A stretch of DNA of 64,000 nucleotides, taken from positions 1,178,001 to 1,242,000 of the forward strand of contig NZ_CP054690.1 of assembly GCF_013348805.1 (NCBI RefSeq), given 5' to 3'. Source of the stretch: Rhodococcus sp. W8901. Its GTDB lineage: Bacteria > Actinomycetota > Actinomycetes > Mycobacteriales > Mycobacteriaceae. This document shows positions 54,904 to 62,412 of this stretch, one piece after another (position 1 is the stretch's first letter; each line of letters starts with the position of its first letter). The position numbers were made by a program, and so were the translations under genes. The notes beneath the pieces were generated by a model. That model had not been told where the DNA came from. It ran no database searches and saw only the letters and a list, made by a program, of their open reading frames with translations.

Positions 54904-55521
54904 TCAGCTCTGCGAGAGGTTCGCCACGCCGGCGACGTCCTGCAGGTTCAGCTTGCTGAGGTCGATCGTCTTCGCGACGTCGTAGGCGTCGAGGATCGGC
55001 TGGCCGATGACGATGCCCTGATCGGCGGCGGCGTCGATGAGCGAGTCGATCTGGTCGAAGACGCCCTGCGCGGGGTGCACCGGTGCCTGGGCGACCGGGG
55101 CGGGAGTGACGACCCGCGGGGCCTCGGTGGCTGGGGCGCTGCGCTGCGACGGCGCGCTGCTCAGGCCGAGCTTGGACGAGCAGGACGGCCAGGCGCCCCA
55201 ACCCTGGTTGGCGAGCACGCGCTCAGCGACGACGATCTGCTGCTCACGGGTGGCCTGGTTCGCGGTGGCAGCGAACTGTCCGCCACCATGGCTGGTCCAG
55301 GTGCTCGGCGAGAACTGCAGGCCACCGTGGTAGCCGTTGCCGGTGTTGATGCCCCAGTTGCCGCCGGCCTCGCACTGCGCGAGCTTGTCCCAGTCGGAGT
55401 CGGGGGCCGCGCTGGCCGTGCCGGCGAAGGCGACACCGCCCACGCCCATGATGGCGCCGGTGACGGCGACCTTGGCTACGGTGCGGCCGGTGGTAGACGG
55501 CTTGCGATGGCGTCCGCTCAT
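54904..55521 (-). CDS. rpfA: Resuscitation-promoting factor (RpfA-like)
   Basis: This 205-residue secreted muralytic enzyme has a signal peptide ([20 protein letters not shown], cleavage after TASAA) and then the Rpf domain [20 protein letters not shown], with the catalytic Glu, continuing [12 protein letters not shown]. Its paired Cys are QCEAG and WPSCSS. The Rpf domain cleaves peptidoglycan and promotes regrowth of dormant cells. After it comes an Ala/Pro linker and a helical tail ([20 protein letters not shown]). The name follows the position of M. tuberculosis Rv0867c, although that protein is longer. A c-di-AMP riboswitch and a CRP-type site lie upstream. Confidence 0.9.
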
Positions 55522-55538
55522 GTCGGTTGGTTCCTCTC

Positions 55539-55722
55539 CGCACGCGCCTGCGAGGTCAGCTGTCGGGTTCGGACTGAGAGGTCGCCCGGCCTCGCCGCTC
55601 ATGGATGGAGCGGGTCTGGCTTCACCCCCAGGGAGATTGCTCTCCCGATGCCCTGCGGGGTTGTCCCTTTCGGGACCTTCTACCCCGGAGGACCTTTGGG
55701 TCCCCCGTCCCCGTCCATGGAT
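55539..55722 (-). promoter_or_regulatory. Cyclic-di-AMP (ydaO/yuaA) riboswitch before rpf
   Basis: Read on the minus strand, the leader has the ydaO-class elements: ACGGGGACGGGGGACCCA near 55697-55714, GGGGGTGAAGCC near 55619-55630, then CAGTCCGAACCCGACAGCTG and ACCTCGCAGGCG near 55543-55574. GGTCCCGAAAGGGAC forms a GAAA-capped stem between them. Riboswitches of this class commonly precede rpf genes in actinobacteria and switch them off when c-di-AMP is high. Boundaries are approximate. Confidence 0.88.
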
Positions 55723-55957
55723 GGTTCGTGGGTGTTCCGGACCCACTGGACGGGGTTTGGCGCGGCGGGCCCGGATGTGGCCGAAGTTCCGGCCGGACAC
55801 GACGGTACGACGATCGAGCGCCAAACGTCACCGGTTGATAACGCGGCGCGTCTTGTGTTGCTCGACTGCGGGATTCGACTGAGACGGCTTAGCCCCAGCT
55901 AGTCGCGTTGGGGCAGGGTTGATCACGGTTCGACACCGCTCCGTTATCGGGGCGTAA

Positions 55958-56803: not shown

Positions 56804-57400
56804 ATGACTGCTTCCACTCGTGTGCCCGGATCGCTGGCGTGGCAGGGCAAGATTCTGGGTGGGGTGCTGCTCGCGCTCTTCCTCGCGGCCGTCGCCGTGA
56901 TCGCGGTGCCGTCGCTGGCTCGCGCCGACGAGCCGGCCCCCACCGTCGAGTACTCGTCCGACAACAGTGTCACCTGGGGCGGCATCGGGGAGATCGACTG
57001 GAATCTCGGTGAGCTGGTCCCCGGGCGGGAGCTCGCGACCACCTTCCAGGTCCGCAACATCGCCGGCGTGGAGGGCTTCGTCGGCTTCTCGGTGGGCCCG
57101 TACACCCTGTCCCAGGGCATGACCGCGACCGCGCGTGTCGACATCGACGGCAAGGCCGGCGACGCAGTGACACTGACCGAGCCCCGCGTGGTGGCTCCCG
57201 GAACGCGGATCGGCTCGGTCCACCTCGGTCCGAACGAGACCGCCGCGATCTCTCTGGTCGTCGGAATGCCCTCCAACGTAGGTAACCAGGCGCAGAACGG
57301 CCACGTGAAGCCGATGTGGGCGGTCGGCTTCGTGCCCGGGCCCGGCCCCGCCTCCACCGGTCCCCTCGGCTCCCTCGGCAGCGGCAGCTTCGCTTCCTGA
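56804..57400 (+). CDS. Secreted beta-rich protein, possible surface partner
   Basis: This 198-residue protein has a membrane-type signal (WQGKILGGVLLALFLAAVAV, cleavage near LARADEP) and then a beta-sandwich-like domain with ELATTFQVRNIAGVEGFVGF and GPNETAAISLVVGMP. The pattern 'charged strand, mid-domain PG turn, N-rich strand' recalls the TasA/camelysin-like fold of the nearby operon proteins, and like them it lacks Cys in the mature part. The C-terminus is Gly/Pro/Ser-rich (GPGPASTGPLGSLGSGSFAS). It is convergent with the SipW/TasA-like operon and is separated from it by two hairpins. Confidence 0.65.
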   Translation: MTASTRVPGSLAWQGKILGGVLLALFLAAVAVIAVPSLARADEPAPTVEYSSDNSVTWGGIGEIDWNLGELVPGRELATTFQVRNIAGVEGFVGFSVGPYTLSQGMTATARVDIDGKAGDAVTLTEPRVVAPGTRIGSVHLGPNETAAISLVVGMPSNVGNQAQNGHVKPMWAVGFVPGPGPASTGPLGSLGSGSFAS

Positions 57401-57425
57401 CCGGGTGCCGGTAGCCCCGACGAAC

Positions 57426-57480
57426 GAACGGGCGGTTGCCTGACTCGGCTCTCGGCCGATGGTCGGACAACCGCCCGTTC
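57426..57480. terminator. First hairpin in the convergent intergenic region
   Basis: GAACGGGCGGTTG (57426-57438) pairs perfectly with CAACCGCCCGTTC (57468-57480), with a 29-base inner loop that can fold again. It lies 26 bases past the stop of the secreted protein gene. Confidence 0.65.
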
Positions 57481-57517
57481 GTGTTCCGATGCGAGTTGCC
57501 GGCACCGCTGACCGAGA

Positions 57518-57558
57518 AGCGCCGGCTGTTCTCCGTCTGCGGGAGAACAGCCGGCGCT
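57518..57558. terminator. Second hairpin in the convergent intergenic region
   Basis: AGCGCCGGCTGTTCTCC (57518-57534) pairs perfectly with GGAGAACAGCCGGCGCT (57542-57558), a 17-bp stem. It probably stops read-through between the two convergent operons. The rest of 57559-57714 shows no gene; it is G-rich with no clear signal. Confidence 0.7.
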
Positions 57559-57714
57559 GTGCGGCGTGCGTCGATCCGGAACGCACGTGCCCGTTTCCCC
57601 GCGCACGTCGTCCACCCGACCTCCGGTGCAGGATCGGGGAGTTGCGGGAAGTGGGGGATCAGGGCCGCCCGATGGGAGGGGGGACCGACGGTGGCCCTGA
57701 GATTGTGGGGGGGG

Positions 57715-58314
57715 TTAGGAGAGGACCTGCTCGAGACGAATTCTGAAGTCGCCGAATGTTGCCGAATCCGACTGCCCGACAATGCCTGACGTCTGCGGAT
57801 CGAAGATGAACCTGGCTGCCACGTCGACAACCGCGTTGTTCTGTGCGGTGTCGACCACGATGCCGGCAGGGCCGGACGGGACGACGGTACCCCCGATGGT
57901 CGCGGTGACCTGAGGCTGTAGCTTGCCCTTGAGCTGGCCGCCGCCGGTGAAGGCGATGTCGTCGGCCGTCAGCCGCGCCTGCAGACCGGTGCCGTTGACG
58001 GTGAGCCGGTAGCTGCCTCGGTACGTCAGAACGTCGCCGGGTACCACCCGGAACGTCGCGATGTCGATGGGACCGTTCCGGTCGCTCCAGCCCGGCGTCG
58101 TCACCTGGGTGAGAGCGAGGGAGCCCGAACCGTTGCCCCCACCACCGATCGTGGTGGGGGGTGCGGTGGTGGTGGGCGCCGACGGCGTCGTGGTCGTTGC
58201 GCCACCGGCGCTACCGCTGCCGAGGCTGCCGAAGTCGCACGCGGACAGCATCAGTGTGGAGCCGAGTGTGGCGGCCGCGACGGCGACCCTGAAGCCCTTG
58301 GTCTGTGTCTTCAT
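57715..58314 (-). CDS. Lipoprotein paralogue of the SipW-type exported protein
   Basis: This 199-residue protein starts MKTQTKGFRVAVAAATLGST with lipobox MLSAC (Cys near 25). A Thr/Pro linker (TTTTPSAPTTTAPP) and a Gly stretch follow. The domain begins TPGWSDRNGPIDIATFRVVP, then GDVLTYRGSYRLTVNGTGLQ. It parallels TPGW, KAVPGDVLVYNAKAKIGAVG and LQAxL of the RER_14450-like protein encoded at 61888-62412. The signal here is ordinary Sec/lipoprotein type, so the same fold would be anchored to the membrane and could be the base for a fibre. The ATG at 58314 is chosen; it lies 27 bases inside a longer frame. It is the last gene of the operon. Confidence 0.75.
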   Translation of the reverse strand: MKTQTKGFRVAVAAATLGSTLMLSACDFGSLGSGSAGGATTTTPSAPTTTAPPTTIGGGGNGSGSLALTQVTTPGWSDRNGPIDIATFRVVPGDVLTYRGSYRLTVNGTGLQARLTADDIAFTGGGQLKGKLQPQVTATIGGTVVPSGPAGIVVDTAQNNAVVDVAARFIFDPQTSGIVGQSDSATFGDFRIRLEQVLS

Positions 58315-58399
58315 CGGACTACTTTCATTCCCCTCGTGCAAGATTCGCCGGCCCCGACCCGATTGGACTTCCCGGCGGTGAGGCCGGGCAGCAGGAGCG

Positions 58400-60082
58400 T
58401 CATTCGATCAGGGCCGCGATGTCGGCCGGCACGTCGGTGGACGACGGGTCGACGGCGGTCTTGTTCCATGTGGAACCCGTTGCCTTGTAGAGCTTCCCGT
58501 TATCCACAATCCACAGGGCGTCTGTGGATGAATCCCACTCGTAGTGGGCCGATGCCGACGCTGGAATCCGCTCCAGTTCTTCACCGTTCGCGTCCTCGAT
58601 CACGATCGCGGTCTCCGAGGTTTCGGCCGAGTTCACCAACAGCGCCGAGTAGTCGCGGGACTGCGACTTCTCCGACGTGCCCAGGGGGGTGTCGGCGGCA
58701 GTGGCCGTCGTAGCCGGAGGCGTGGTTGTAGTGGTAGTGGTTGTCGTGGATTCCGATGTCTCCGACGCCGTTGTCGGAGGCGTGGTTGTCGTGGTGGTGG
58801 TGCTTGCCGTCGTGTCGGACGTCGTCGGAGCGGTCGTTGTGGTGCTAGTGGTGGTCTGAGGCGACGTCGTGCTCGACGGTGCGGCGGTTGTCGAGGACGG
58901 CGTCGTGGTGGTCTCGACGGGTCCCGCCATCCGGGCGTTCAGCGCTTCGGTTCCGGCGGTTAGTCCCTGCACCTGGTTGCCGTCGGAGGTAGCGCCGTCG
59001 CACTTGATGTTCCAGAGGGTGAACGCCCACATGTTCTCGCCTACCCAGCCGGAGCCAATCTGCCCGTCTCGCTTCGCGCGCACCTCGATTCGGGAGGACG
59101 AGGCCGTCTCGTAGACGTTGTCGTATGCGCTCACGCTGATGGAGACTACGTCTCCCTTGTTCTGCGGGATCGTGGGATTCCAGGATCCGCCCCATCCGCT
59201 CACCAGCTTGACATCATAGGTGTACCCGGGTCCGAGATGCGCCCACTTCATCGTGACGGAGCCACCGCTACCGCTGCACCCCAACCACTTCGGTGCCGCC
59301 AACATATCGGCGGGCGTCGAGAACGACGCTGCCGCCGTGGCATTGTCGGTGAGCGCCGCAGCGGTCATCGTGGCCTGGGTGATGCCGAGGACAGACAGGG
59401 CGGCGGCGCTGATCGCAAGTATCGATCGAGCGGAGGGGACCGAGAATCGCTTTGTGGGAGACATGGGTTCGACCTTCGACTCGATGACTGGCACGAATTC
59501 GGTGGTGGCAGCGTCCTCGATAGACGAACCCGGGCCGGTCGCCTGGTCGTCGTCGCTGTCGTCGTCATTCTTCTTGGCTGGGCGTACCACGATCATCAGT
59601 AGAGCGCCGACGAAAGCGCCGCCGAGGAGGAGTGCAGCGGGGCTCGACAGCCACGCCACCACGTAGCCGAGTCCGCCGACGCTCGTGAAGACGCGATCGG
59701 CTTCGGTGATTGCGTAGGGTTCGATGTCGGGGTCCTGGTTGGCATCGCCCTTGAGTGTGACGAGCACGGTGCCACCGGCCTGTGGATCGAGCGCGTGCAC
59801 GCGGTGCGTGATGCGGGTGCCCTGCGTATTCTCGACGCTGACAACGTCACCAACCTTCAGATCGGTGGCTGGGACGTTGCGAGACAACGCGAGTGAACCG
59901 GTTGTGATCTCGGGCGACATCGAACCGGACCGGAAGATCAGCGGCTTGACGCCGAACACCATTGCGGCGACGGTCGCCACTATGCAGATCACGCCAGCGA
60001 CGGCACCGATGGTGAGCGCGGTTTCTCGGCAGAGCCAGCTGATTGATCTTGGCCGGCGCGAAGCCTTCTCATTGTCAGACAT
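58400..60082 (-). CDS. Fusion of SipW-like signal peptidase with exported substrate-like domain
   Basis: This is a 560-residue protein. Residues 20-45 are a span. An S26B (ER/SipW-type) peptidase follows, with the Ser in FRSGSMSPEI (S54), His in ITHRVHALD (H93) and Asp in VTLKGDANQDPD (D112). A second span lies at about 135-162. After an acidic linker, residues 207 on (MSPTKRFSVPSARSIL) start a new signal-like segment (AISAAALSVLGITQATMTAA), then an exported beta domain with KWLGCSGSGGSVTMKWAHLG. A Thr-rich stalk (about 400-475) and a C-terminal domain (LWIVDNGKLYKATGSTWNK) complete it. SipW-like peptidases are normally about 190-220 residues, so this is an unusual enzyme-substrate fusion. 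The ATG at 60082 follows GAGGT. Confidence 0.8.
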   Translation of the reverse strand: MSDNEKASRRPRSISWLCRETALTIGAVAGVICIVATVAAMVFGVKPLIFRSGSMSPEITTGSLALSRNVPATDLKVGDVVSVENTQGTRITHRVHALDPQAGGTVLVTLKGDANQDPDIEPYAITEADRVFTSVGGLGYVVAWLSSPAALLLGGAFVGALLMIVVRPAKKNDDDSDDDQATGPGSSIEDAATTEFVPVIESKVEPMSPTKRFSVPSARSILAISAAALSVLGITQATMTAAALTDNATAAASFSTPADMLAAPKWLGCSGSGGSVTMKWAHLGPGYTYDVKLVSGWGGSWNPTIPQNKGDVVSISVSAYDNVYETASSSRIEVRAKRDGQIGSGWVGENMWAFTLWNIKCDGATSDGNQVQGLTAGTEALNARMAGPVETTTTPSSTTAAPSSTTSPQTTTSTTTTAPTTSDTTASTTTTTTTPPTTASETSESTTTTTTTTTPPATTATAADTPLGTSEKSQSRDYSALLVNSAETSETAIVIEDANGEELERIPASASAHYEWDSSTDALWIVDNGKLYKATGSTWNKTAVDPSSTDVPADIAALIE

Positions 60083-60089
60083 TGCTACC

Positions 60090-60683
60090 TCACGCCGTGG
60101 TCGCCGCAAAGGCGAATGAGACGTTGACCGTCTTGTTCTGCGAGGCGACTGTCACGGTGGGGTCGAGTGCGACGCGGAAACACAGTGTCTCCGAACCGGT
60201 CGACGGGGCGAGGTTGCGGCCGACGGTGATGATCGGCTTGGCTGCGCTGGTGGACAGGGCCGTGGGGGCGATGATCTGGTTTGCGCACGCGGCGTCGAGG
60301 ACAGTGACCTTGAGGAATCCGGCCAGGGTGGCGTCGCCGGTTGCAGAGGCCGACATCGTATAGCTGAACGGGGCAGTGCCCTTGTTCTGGATCGGCAGGG
60401 CGGCCTGGACACTGTCGCCCGGCATCATGTCGGTCTTGTTCAGCGTTGTGAACGCGTACGCGGGATTGCCCTGATTGTTGTTGAGCTGCAGGTCGATCGA
60501 GGCAACGCTGAAAACACCCGACGTCGCGGTTGCGGTGTCACTCCACGCGGCCATAGTGCCGACCGCACCCAGACCGAGCACGATTCCGAGGGAGAGTGCG
60601 GCGCGCACTCGGCCGCCACCTAACGCCTTGCGCACGCGGGTACCGGAGGTGGGAGTCGATGAGGAGTGCTCGGGGCGAGGCAT
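60090..60683 (-). CDS. SipW-type exported protein (TasA-like), third member
   Basis: This 197-residue protein has a basic N-terminal 27 residues, a hydrophobic segment (RAALSLGIVLGLGAVGTMAA) and then WSDTATATSGVFS, the W-S-D-T/S pattern seen after the signal of SipW-cognate exported proteins. The mature part (FSVASIDLQLNNNQGN, LNKTDMMPGDSVQAALPIQN) is a beta-sandwich with alternating strands like camelysin/TasA. It lies between the two peptidase genes, 7 bases before the fusion gene. The ATG at 60683 has AAGGA upstream. Confidence 0.8.
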   Translation of the reverse strand: MPRPEHSSSTPTSGTRVRKALGGGRVRAALSLGIVLGLGAVGTMAAWSDTATATSGVFSVASIDLQLNNNQGNPAYAFTTLNKTDMMPGDSVQAALPIQNKGTAPFSYTMSASATGDATLAGFLKVTVLDAACANQIIAPTALSTSAAKPIITVGRNLAPSTGSETLCFRVALDPTVTVASQNKTVNVSFAFAATTA

Positions 60684-60694
60684 CGCGGTCCTTC

Positions 60695-61330
60695 TTACTT
60701 CGTCGTGGCCGGCGCGTCGGCGTCGACAACGGGGATTACGGCAGTGACGGTGGAGTCGTCGTCGGAGGCCGACTCGGGTCGGCGCTTGCGGGCCTTGTCC
60801 AGGCCTGAGCTGACGAACATCGACACCGCGTAGATCAGCAGACCGCCGACGACCACCACGAGGAGGACCGAGCGCTGCTTGCCGGTGATGTAGTTGTTGA
60901 CATACCCCACATAGGACACGGAGTACCAGACCTTGCCCCGAACCTGCTCGGGTACAACCGGTCTCTCGTCGGGTGACGGGTTGTTGTCGCCGTGCGTCAC
61001 AAACGTCAGTTCGCCCTGAGACGTGCGCCGCACCTGGGTGATCCGGTGGGTCACAACATCCGGCTTGCCGGACTCCCACTGAAAGGTGATGGGGTCGCCG
61101 ACCGCGAGTGTCTGCGGGTCCTGCGGTCGCACAACGATGAGCGTTCCCGGAGGATACGTGGGCTTCATCGAACCGGTCAGCACCGTATATGGGGTGGCGC
61201 CGACGATTCGTGGAATCACGATCGTCAGCGCCAGGATGCCGACCATCGCGATGAGCAGCAGCCAAGAGACGACGGACTTCACCCACCACCAAATGGTGGT
61301 GGGCTCGTCCCTCCCGACCGCGTTACTCAT
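60695..61330 (-). CDS. SipW-like signal peptidase I
   Basis: This 211-residue membrane peptidase has an N-terminal span (VVSWLLLIAMVGILALTIV) and the ER/archaeal-type Ser-His-Asp arrangement: S54 in TVLTGSMKPTYPPG, H95 in VVTHRITQV, D115 in VTHGDNNPSPDE. The use of His in place of the bacterial Lys is the mark of SipW. A second span (VLLVVVVGGLLIYAVSMFV) and an acidic tail follow. It should cut the special signal peptides of the small exported proteins in this operon. Its ATG overlaps the stop of the second exported-protein gene (TGATG). Confidence 0.88.
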   Translation of the reverse strand: MSNAVGRDEPTTIWWWVKSVVSWLLLIAMVGILALTIVIPRIVGATPYTVLTGSMKPTYPPGTLIVVRPQDPQTLAVGDPITFQWESGKPDVVTHRITQVRRTSQGELTFVTHGDNNPSPDERPVVPEQVRGKVWYSVSYVGYVNNYITGKQRSVLLVVVVGGLLIYAVSMFVSSGLDKARKRRPESASDDDSTVTAVIPVVDADAPATTK

Positions 61331-61884
61331 CAGGACTCCGAAGCGAAGGTGAATGTTGCCGTGGTGCTGGCGCCTTGAATTGCTGCAGCGCCGACTGTGC
61401 CGCGAAGACACAGCACCTCGGACGCACCTGAGCCGAGAGTGCGCCATTGCGGCGACGTGGGAGTCTGCGCACCGACCATCGCCCCGCTGTAAAGCTGCGT
61501 TGCCCCAGTCGGGTTGGCGTCTGCGGGGCATGCCGCCTCTGAGCCGACGGTCGATACCGTGAGCGTCAGGGGCACAGCAGCATCGGATTGCGCGACGTTC
61601 TGCAGTCGGTACTTCATTGGCACGTTGCCGGAGTTGCGCACCGTCAGCGGAGCCTGCGCGAAGCCTCCGGGTATCAGGTTGGTCTTGCCCAGGGCCGAGA
61701 ACGCGAAGTTGCTCTGCGTCGTGCCGCCGGCACCGACACCGATGTCGAGGGTTCCGGAGGTGATGGTTCCCCCGGCGAGGCTCTTGGAGTCACTCCACAG
61801 GGCGCCGGTCTGCTGGGTGGAGAAGAAGATCAGACCCAGGGCCGGCACCGCTGCGAGTGCCCACCAACGGTGGTTTTTGGACAA
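61330..61884 (-). CDS. SipW-type exported protein (TasA-like), second member
   Basis: This 184-residue protein starts MSKNHRWWALAAVPALGLIF and has FSTQQTGALWSDSKSLAGGT at its cleavage region. A beta-sandwich mature part includes TSGTLDIGVGAGGTTQSNFA and LTVRNSGNVPMKYRLQNVAQ. It differs from the third member mainly in the middle (EAACPADANPTGATQL) but shares the A-x-W-S-D motif. It probably starts at TTG 61884, 3 bases after the previous stop, because no ATG or GTG lies near; AGGA is 10 bases upstream. Confidence 0.78.
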   Translation of the reverse strand: MSKNHRWWALAAVPALGLIFFSTQQTGALWSDSKSLAGGTITSGTLDIGVGAGGTTQSNFAFSALGKTNLIPGGFAQAPLTVRNSGNVPMKYRLQNVAQSDAAVPLTLTVSTVGSEAACPADANPTGATQLYSGAMVGAQTPTSPQWRTLGSGASEVLCLRGTVGAAAIQGASTTATFTFASES

Positions 61885-61887
61885 CTG

Positions 61888-62412
61888 TCAGGAATCCTGC
61901 GTGAGGGTGAGGTTGAAGTTTGCGAGGTTCACGCTCTGGGTCTGCGCCGTCGTGCCGGTCGCGTTGAATGTGAAGGTGACCTGGACGTCGACCGTCTGGC
62001 CGTCGTTGTCCTGGTTGATCGCCACTCCCGTGGCACCGGTGGCCAGGGCGTCGCCGTTAAGGGTTGCGGTGGTCTGAGGAGCGAGGGCGGCAAGAAGCTC
62101 TGGGTCGCCGGTGATGCTGCTGGCATCTGCCTTGAGCGTCGCGTGCAGGTTGTCGCCAACCGCGCCGATCTTGGCCTTTGCGTTGTAGACGAGGACATCG
62201 CCGGGAACGGCCTTGTAGCTGGAGATGGTGACCGGGCTTCCGCCCTTGGTCCAACCGGGAGTTCCCACGGTCTCGAGGGAGAGCTTGCCGGAGGAGATCG
62301 TGCCGCCGTTGAGCGTCTCGGTGTCGCTCCACAGCGCGAATGTGCCGGCACCACCGGCGAGGAGCAGCGCCGCTGCGCCGGCGGCGATTGCGCCCTTGGT
62401 CTGCTTGTTCAT
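61888..62412 (-). CDS. SipW-type exported protein, RER_14450-like, first member
   Basis: This 174-residue protein has the alternate signal MNKQTKGAIAAGAAALLLAG, then GAGTFALWSDTETLNGGTIS, and a mature domain (TPGWTKGGSPVTISSYKAVP, GDVLVYNAKAKIGAVGDNLH). The signal and the length match the 'alternate signal-mediated exported protein, RER_14450' group of rhodococci. It is the first gene of the leftward operon, so it is likely to be the most abundant product. The final lipoprotein of the operon is its paralogue. The ATG at 62412 follows GAGAACACC weakly. Confidence 0.82.
   Translation of the reverse strand: MNKQTKGAIAAGAAALLLAGGAGTFALWSDTETLNGGTISSGKLSLETVGTPGWTKGGSPVTISSYKAVPGDVLVYNAKAKIGAVGDNLHATLKADASSITGDPELLAALAPQTTATLNGDALATGATGVAINQDNDGQTVDVQVTFTFNATGTTAQTQSVNLANFNLTLTQDS

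Follow-up and report, generated by a model that had tools for sequence, protein, structure and literature searches.

A SipW/TasA-related gene cassette in Rhodococcus sp. W8901 with an apparent peptidase-substrate fusion and a lipoprotein copy of a predicted fibre subunit

Background

Filament operons that depend on the signal peptidase SipW are known in Bacillus subtilis, Bacillus cereus (PMC13082335) and Clostridium perfringens (PMC7395162); comparisons with published work in this study rest on the available parts of the cited papers. Here a related set of six genes, designated A to F, was analysed by computation in Rhodococcus sp. W8901, at positions 57715-62412 of a stretch of 64,000 nucleotides (contig NZ_CP054690.1, positions 1,178,001 to 1,242,000; referred to as the window, with its own numbering used throughout). 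The genes constitute a real, conserved and TasA-related system, the new features of which are an apparent peptidase-substrate fusion (gene E) and a donor-less, lipidated copy of the first substrate (gene F). Export and the relatedness of the parts are well supported. For the locus as a whole we favour, with a probability of roughly 0.6, a reading as the actinobacterial counterpart of the Bacillus SipW/TasA/CalY systems, in which A, B and D would form donor-strand fibres.

The locus resembles the tapA-sipW-tasA operon of B. subtilis in its dedicated endoplasmic reticulum (ER)-type peptidase, in substrates whose P2' residue is aromatic, and in a beta-sandwich subunit with a similar N-terminal register (PMC9674648, PMC10151520). 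TapA is processed by SipW and has a complete immunoglobulin-like fold; it donates its N-terminus to the first TasA and is itself unable to accept one (PMC10151520). Judged by this published description, the ectodomain of E appears TapA-like in make-up, with a SipW-type start, a closed fibronectin type III (FN3)-like domain and a disordered tail, to which a head is added. No TapA-named model was found among the NCBIfam and Pfam matches of the window proteins, no search aimed at TapA having been made. Unlike B. subtilis, the present locus has three shaft-like substrates, two peptidases (one of them substrate-fused) and a lipoprotein copy, belongs to the phylum Actinomycetota, and has its protein A in a separate family, TIGR04089.

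The sipW-tasA/calY/capP genes of B. cereus (see also PMC4292775) are similar in that there are several SipW substrates and mixed filaments with a helper, without a sortase (PMC13082335). They differ in having one SipW, separate transcription units and a cell-wall helper, CapP, where the present locus has a lipoprotein copy and a fused peptidase (PMC13082335). The sipW-bsaABCRSD operon of C. perfringens likewise combines a SipW-type peptidase with several exported proteins, and BsaA forms filaments without sortase; it has one SipW and a two-component system within the operon, and the available part of the source mentions no lipoprotein copy (PMC7395162). The BsaA family model matched 11 of 74 aligned D sequences at E<=0.01.

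Archaeal bundling pili are donor-strand filaments, and we know of no fused peptidase in these or in thread filaments. The comparison with these filaments (see also PMC9715654) was made by the chain of the pilus protein AbpX (9sj2/9rhp), and they differ in their archaeal host; the mature start of AbpX fits the register of A, B and D.

The idea of export is already annotated, as A and F score over the cut-off of the NCBIfam model TIGR04089 (exp_by_SipW_III), and A and D, by their signals, over that of TIGR04088 (cognate_SipW). These family names are silent on the fold, on a fibre, on the internal signal of E and on the lipidation of F. Among the titles and abstract starts listed as matches in the open-access literature, none is on this system in Actinomycetota; as far as these searches go, the family is named in annotation and is not described as a fibre system within the literature covered.

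Gene organization of the locus

The six genes are encoded on the minus strand:

Gene A, 61888..62412, minus strand, 174 aa; signal ending in TFA, followed by LWSD; SipW-exported beta-sandwich protein (RER_14450/exp_by_SipW_III), predicted fibre subunit
Gene B, 61330..61884, minus strand, 184 aa, TTG start; signal ending in TGA, followed by LWSD; second SipW-type substrate, homologue of D
Gene C, 60695..61330, minus strand, 211 aa; SipW-like ER-type signal peptidase, Ser54/His95
Gene D, 60090..60683, minus strand, 197 aa; signal ending in TMA, followed by AWSD; camelysin/TasA-type substrate
Gene E, 58400..60082, minus strand, 560 aa; SipW-type peptidase, linker (predicted cytosolic), SipW-type signal and exported ectodomain
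Gene F, 57715..58314, minus strand, 199 aa; lipobox, Thr/Gly stalk, then the domain of A; without the SipW signal and N-terminal segment of A

The distances calculated from these coordinates are 3 nt (A-B), a 1 nt overlap (B-C), 11 nt (C-D), 7 nt (D-E) and 85 nt (E-F). With gaps this short, genes A to E look as though they are coupled in translation as one unit, which F follows closely. A promoter scan identified one site versus 0.5 expected, and a terminator scan 10 sites versus 3.2 expected, none of them on the strand of F behind this gene. The locus is the sole place in the genome with matches over cut-off to TIGR04089 (two) and to the signal peptidase family TIGR02228 (two). The preliminary description of this DNA had listed three small proteins with A-x-W-S-D type signals, two peptidases of which one is fused, and an A-like lipoprotein; all of these are present, with family scores far beyond chance.

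Conservation of the cassette

Related loci were taken as the best 80 of 124 from a single scan of named genomes with the C alignment, so that C is present by construction (named loci hereafter); genes of the B/D and E types were required only to be present within a stretch of at most 14.6 kb. Of the 80, 79 have an upstream A-type gene on the same strand, 74 have at least two B/D-type genes and 74 an E-type peptidase, and the full core set A-E occurs together in 69/80 named loci across Actinomycetota. The preliminary description had regarded separation of the genes in related genomes as an argument against a common system; for the core genes the linkage found does not speak against one. Classes were assigned by best score, since the iterated profiles did not keep A apart from F, B from D, or C from the E peptidase; this procedure mislabels some Micrococcaceae B proteins as D and some lone peptidases as C.

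The 11 loci in which the core set was scored as incomplete include three that stop at a contig end (L122, L163, L175), one in which the ectodomain determined the label given to the fused E (L108), one with B and C read as a single ORF (L145), one in which several ORFs look broken (L128), three with a single B/D gene (L149, L154, L157) and two without an E match (L176, L178). In L128 (Prescottella defluvii SampleD3_15) each peptidase gene is split over two ORFs, as if frame-shifted or misread. Gene order varies while the set holds: the order A B C D E occurs in 24/80, several Rhodococcus have A D E A B C, and some cassette genes are on the other strand in a few loci (L102 and L104 among them). 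Best-score classing also shows the F genes of L102, L113 and L169 as A in these gene orders.

The named loci belong to Rhodococcus, Prescottella, Rhodococcoides, Williamsia, Gordonia, Nocardia and Dietzia, and further to Arthrobacter, Glutamicibacter, Psychromicrobium, Nocardioides, Aeromicrobium and others. Arthrobacter, Glutamicibacter and Nocardioides are without mycolates, so the earlier argument that a mycolate envelope demands a different anchor cannot be general.

A peptidase matching C at E<=1e-8 is present in 58 of the 121 family genomes. A C-type match (best >150 bits, next best 59) occurs in 45, which are exactly the 45 with TIGR04089, and the other 76 have neither. A weaker peptidase match is present in 13 of these 76; seven of the 13 were read (eight loci), and each stretch holds a peptidase and one or more D-like proteins without an A-class gene, so that a simple D-plus-peptidase set does occur by itself. 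In the class sample, 33/394 genomes have TIGR04089 above cut-off.

Several individual loci have features of their own. Two cassettes each are found in P. equi DSM 20307 (L100, L152) and R. erythropolis NBRC 15567 (L110, L146), the cassette of L110 being one with F. In L049:97-6548 (G110:C1) a 3226-base unit that encodes D, B, A and an E ectodomain is tandemly repeated (84% identical, ungapped), and the same genome has three equal A matches at 3226-base steps, i.e. amplified substrate genes. The A protein of L129, recorded as Kitasatospora arboriphila NRRL B-24581, groups with Williamsia, perhaps reflecting a mislabelled genome.

Signal peptidases and their predicted substrates

Both peptidases score above the TIGR02228 cut-off of 51.85 (C 99.8 bits, E 60.7 bits) and have the Ser-His dyad as well as the SM and THR motifs. 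They remain below the cut-off of 190 of the Bacillus SipW equivalog NF046067 (C 96.1, E 52.3). Ser54 and His95 of C are invariant in 17 aligned sequences. The His motif is found in 91/91 named C-class proteins and in 77/78 named E-class peptidases; the Lys motif searched for is found in none of these 169. The preliminary description had noted His in place of Lys in the first peptidase, which is correct, but this is no speciality of C, since the dyad occurs in both C and E. Escherichia coli signal peptidase I cuts poorly when P2' is aromatic, and TasA, with Phe at that position, is cut by SipW (PMC10269814).

The signals of A, B and D are short and hydrophobic and end in Ala, followed by x-Trp-Ser-Asp. 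Two of them pass the SipW-dependent signal model TIGR04088 (cut-off 19), i.e. A with 30.3 and D with 28.0 bits; neither B nor the inner segment of E is reported by this model at E<=1, and at E<=0.01 it picks up 2/60 B sequences. Protein A reaches 156.2 bits in TIGR04089 (cut-off 60), a model matched at E<=0.01 by 90/90 aligned A and F sequences. Protein B is below every NCBIfam cut-off (best 16.7 of 60), and its homology to D is clear (hhalign probability 99.7, E 2e-26). The Pfam camelysin/TasA family PF12389 (gathering 22.5) includes D with 26.8 bits; A, with 16.3 bits, stays below this value and B gives no match. At E<=0.01, 37/74 D sequences match PF12389. In the TasA equivalog NF046066 (cut-off 450 bits) D scores only 17, and we therefore consider D to be TasA-like, not TasA.

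A fold was predicted for A, the sole one of the three substrates tested in this way. Its AlphaFold2 model has a mean predicted local distance difference test (pLDDT) score of 85.6, and from residue 41 onward each block of ten scores 89-98. A Foldseek comparison with the PDB has the TasA fibre (8aur) as its best match, with a modest score (E 1.4e-3, probability 1.00), and the top 25 also include donor-strand pilins (CFA/I, PapA, FimA) and the Tafi pilus. Together with the PF12389 score of D, this supports the TasA/camelysin kinship first proposed, the predicted fold of A being suggestive of TasA rather than unlike it; SipW-type export is likewise supported. Profile searches against PDB sequences gave, for B, immunoglobulin-type matches and one cell-surface match (0.017 or weaker) and, for D, weak matches to AbpX (0.0078) and TasA (0.6-0.77), both behind a flagellar protein (0.002). 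The family profile of A found no TasA; its top match, an LPXTG protein (E 0.004), covers one stretch and was taken as chance.

A common N-terminal register

A, B and D have a common register in their mature N-terminus that resembles the donor strand of TasA and is missing from F. In A it comprises the following segment:

A residues 27-41 (LWSDTETLNGGTISS), 62290..62334, minus strand; predicted mature N-terminus, candidate donor strand

In the monomer model of A, secondary structure starts only at residue 43, and pLDDT is 48 for residues 21-30 and 73 for residues 31-40. Among aligned A sequences Ala26 and Trp/Phe28 are each found in 81/81, and each in 0/9 of the F sequences. Counted from the P2' aromatic residue, the sites at +11 and +16 are hydrophobic in fractions of 0.91/0.94 for A (n=94), 0.81/0.92 for B (n=64 of 65) and 0.85/0.80 for D (n=92 of 96), whereas the search itself fixes the aromatic residue at +0 at 1.0. 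A longer register signature is present in 89/94 A, 57/65 B and 73/96 D sequences, and in 0/11 named F sequences. The TasA donor strand consists of residues 28-38, with contacts that include F29, I32 and F39 (PMC9674648). In most sequences of the present families the spacing is one residue more than that between F29 and F39 of TasA. The solved chain of AbpX begins alike (WSETLSLSATISTGSLDV).

A lipoprotein copy of the first substrate

Gene F encodes a second copy of the domain of A behind a lipoprotein signal:

F lipobox LSAC (Cys26), 58237..58248, minus strand; identified in the sequence

F scores 79.0 bits in TIGR04089, covering profile positions 32-179 only and leaving the signal part uncovered; it retains the first strand (SGSLAL...) and the remainder of the domain. 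The lipobox is present in 11 named F orthologues, including those of L128 and L114. In a tree of 100 A/F domains all 12 lipoproteins (these 11 and that of the window) form one clade (98/82, rough bootstrap); seven sequences from L154, L171, L175, L176 and L178, most of them on long branches, were left out. In a first A/F tree the nearest kin of F are SipW-exported A copies of other Rhodococcus, which also lie behind E (15 sequences, support 96). A single F clade with such kin implies that a single change between the two kinds of N-terminus, SipW signal and lipid anchor, suffices; the direction of this change is beyond what the tree alone can give.

Of the loci read, those with a gene for F belong to Prescottella, R. 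tukisamuensis and the R. erythropolis group, and most loci hold the cassette without F. The conservation of all six genes together that had been envisaged thus does not hold, and F, being confined to one clade, is no general part of the system. The kept domain could serve a lipoprotein of other function, for instance a chaperone or a ligand receptor that retained the binding domain of A and forms no fibre base. The cassette does without F in most loci, and its position varies, from 85 nt past E in the window to behind C in L102, L104 and L128 and the opposite strand in L169. Against such a separate role, F accompanies the cassette in 12/12 F loci, the window included, and lies behind E in eight of them, and its nearest kin elsewhere in Rhodococcus is a SipW-exported A copy that likewise follows E. 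We give this alternative a substantial chance, somewhat short of even. Two F-like matches under cut-off (about 53 bits, profile 36/38-177) were seen away from cassettes, in genomes that share a genus (G083:C1:5306515-5306910 and G097:C43:32057-32458).

Fibre subunits or exported monomers

A different view of A, B and D is that they are SipW-exported monomers or small oligomers, such as binding proteins or camelysin-like enzymes, and that the operon is a dedicated export cassette. Several results point in this direction or weigh against donor-strand fibres. Beta-sandwiches are common, and none of the PDB matches of A reaches E 0.001 in Foldseek. VIA-align sets A about equally near many beta-sandwiches, with TasA at rank 38 and not singled out. 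Pfam names the family of D a metallo-endopeptidase, and the D protein of the window itself fails the longer register signature. On the other hand, the register is conserved where the monomer model is structureless, and unless this segment has a partner its conservation is difficult to account for; the top Foldseek match is a fibre form, and F has the domain but not that N-terminal segment. Weighing these points, we consider the monomer explanation unlikely, and continue with donor-strand fibres of A, B and D.

Gene E: a peptidase apparently joined to a substrate

E extends about 380 residues beyond its peptidase part, and the following elements were distinguished:

E residues 218-242, 59357..59431, minus strand; third membrane segment, apparently an internal signal of SipW type; cleavage predicted behind Ala242
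E residues 259-355, 59018..59308, minus strand; FN3-like beta-sandwich
E Thr-rich stalk, 58700..58921, minus strand; identified in the sequence, model low-confidence and structureless there
E residues 460-560, 58403..58705, minus strand; C-terminal beta domain resembling beta-propeller blades

The third membrane segment is like a SipW signal, and E therefore has the appearance of a peptidase and its own substrate joined in one protein, a feature absent from the preliminary description. The peptidase lies within an ORF of at least 300 aa (trimmed length) in 62/80 named loci, and in addition in L108; ten ORFs were labelled as separate ectodomains, that of L108 wrongly.

Alternatively, the segment may be an uncut stop or anchor, the ectodomain then staying with the peptidase as a membrane adhesin or assembly platform. 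This would be in line with Leu at P2' in the E protein of the window, with the detection of the inner segment by TIGR04088 at E<=0.01 in only 2/53 E sequences, and with a strict SipW-junction motif in only 2/10 ORFs labelled as separate ectodomains. The same motif is found, however, at 31/60 E junctions versus 2/290 control membrane segments; Ala242, the predicted P1 residue, is invariant in 53 sequences, and the D profile aligns onto E 215-258 (hhalign 90.9). Moreover, where the two parts are split (L101, L103 and L104, for example), the ectodomain has a gene of its own that opens with the same type of segment, L128 being an exception. On balance an uncut anchor seems rather improbable. A looser junction motif, found at 52/60 E junctions but also in 74/82 first membrane segments of C, was dropped as a test.

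A sortase-type pilus with covalently linked, wall-held subunits is a very remote prospect: VIA-align places many sortase-pilus domains near A and the genome has three sortases, but LPxTG/NPxTN motifs occur in 0/8 proteins tested, none of the three sortase matches is nearer than about 0.5 Mb, and the signals are SipW-type. A type IV pilus was dropped, as no such family is among the NCBIfam and Pfam matches of the eight proteins.

Proposed assembly

For the favoured donor-strand fibre we propose that the subunits would be exported by Sec, after which C and the N-terminal domain of E would cut the SipW-type signals of A, B and D, and that of E's own ectodomain. Cleavage would free a mature N-terminus, which in A, B and D begins with x-Trp (or Phe) and has hydrophobic residues at a fixed spacing ahead of the first strand of the domain. 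The free N-terminal strand of one subunit could then complete the beta-sandwich of the next, as in TasA, with A, B and D building the shaft.

The ectodomain of E appears TapA-like in make-up, and F is its mirror, with a domain that could accept, a non-donating start and a lipid. In the fibre that this suggests, E would form one end, possibly as a donor-only, adhesive tip, and F the membrane-held end as an acceptor-only lipid base, with A, B and D between them. The lipoprotein and the Thr-stalk protein had been named before as candidates for base and tip, an assignment that we infer in the same conditional sense. In its complete form, the two-ended fibre would have an E ectodomain that only donates (free strand, closed FN3 domain, Thr stalk, beta head), A, B and D that both accept and donate, and an F in which lipid anchor and stalk take the place of the donor segment and which traps the last free strand at the membrane, and the fusion in E would couple the first cut to the start of the fibre. 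We hold this complete scheme only tentatively and doubt that it is correct in every part.

If true, TasA-type fibres, studied in Bacillus and archaea, extend to a widespread actinobacterial group, and the locus holds a built-in answer to the open question of what starts and anchors such fibres. The fused peptidase-substrate and the copy switched from signal to lipid would then be clean tools to test donor-strand assembly by single gene removals.

Neighbouring genes

Facing the operon is a gene on the other strand:

Gene G, 56804..57400, plus strand; small secreted protein with a GSLGSGS tail

The leftward run described earlier comprises the six genes A-F, but the range originally given for it opens with the plus-strand gene G. 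A G-class ORF is present in 27/80 named loci and is thus a frequent neighbour in part of the family. Kinship of G with D is unproven (hhalign 32), and the G profile finds nothing in the PDB at E<=1. The GSLGSGS stretch is common to G and F, and four aligned Dietzia sequences of G (L134, L148, L156, L166) have a lipobox-like start. In many Rhodococcoides-type loci (L115-L127) an extra, weakly G-like gene, often of 165-172 aa, lies between C and D.

Outside the locus, an ordinary c-di-AMP riboswitch (RF00379, 41.4 bits) was identified at 55529-55685 on the minus strand, ahead of an ORF at 54904-55824 on the same strand, the product of which we take to resemble a resuscitation-promoting factor.

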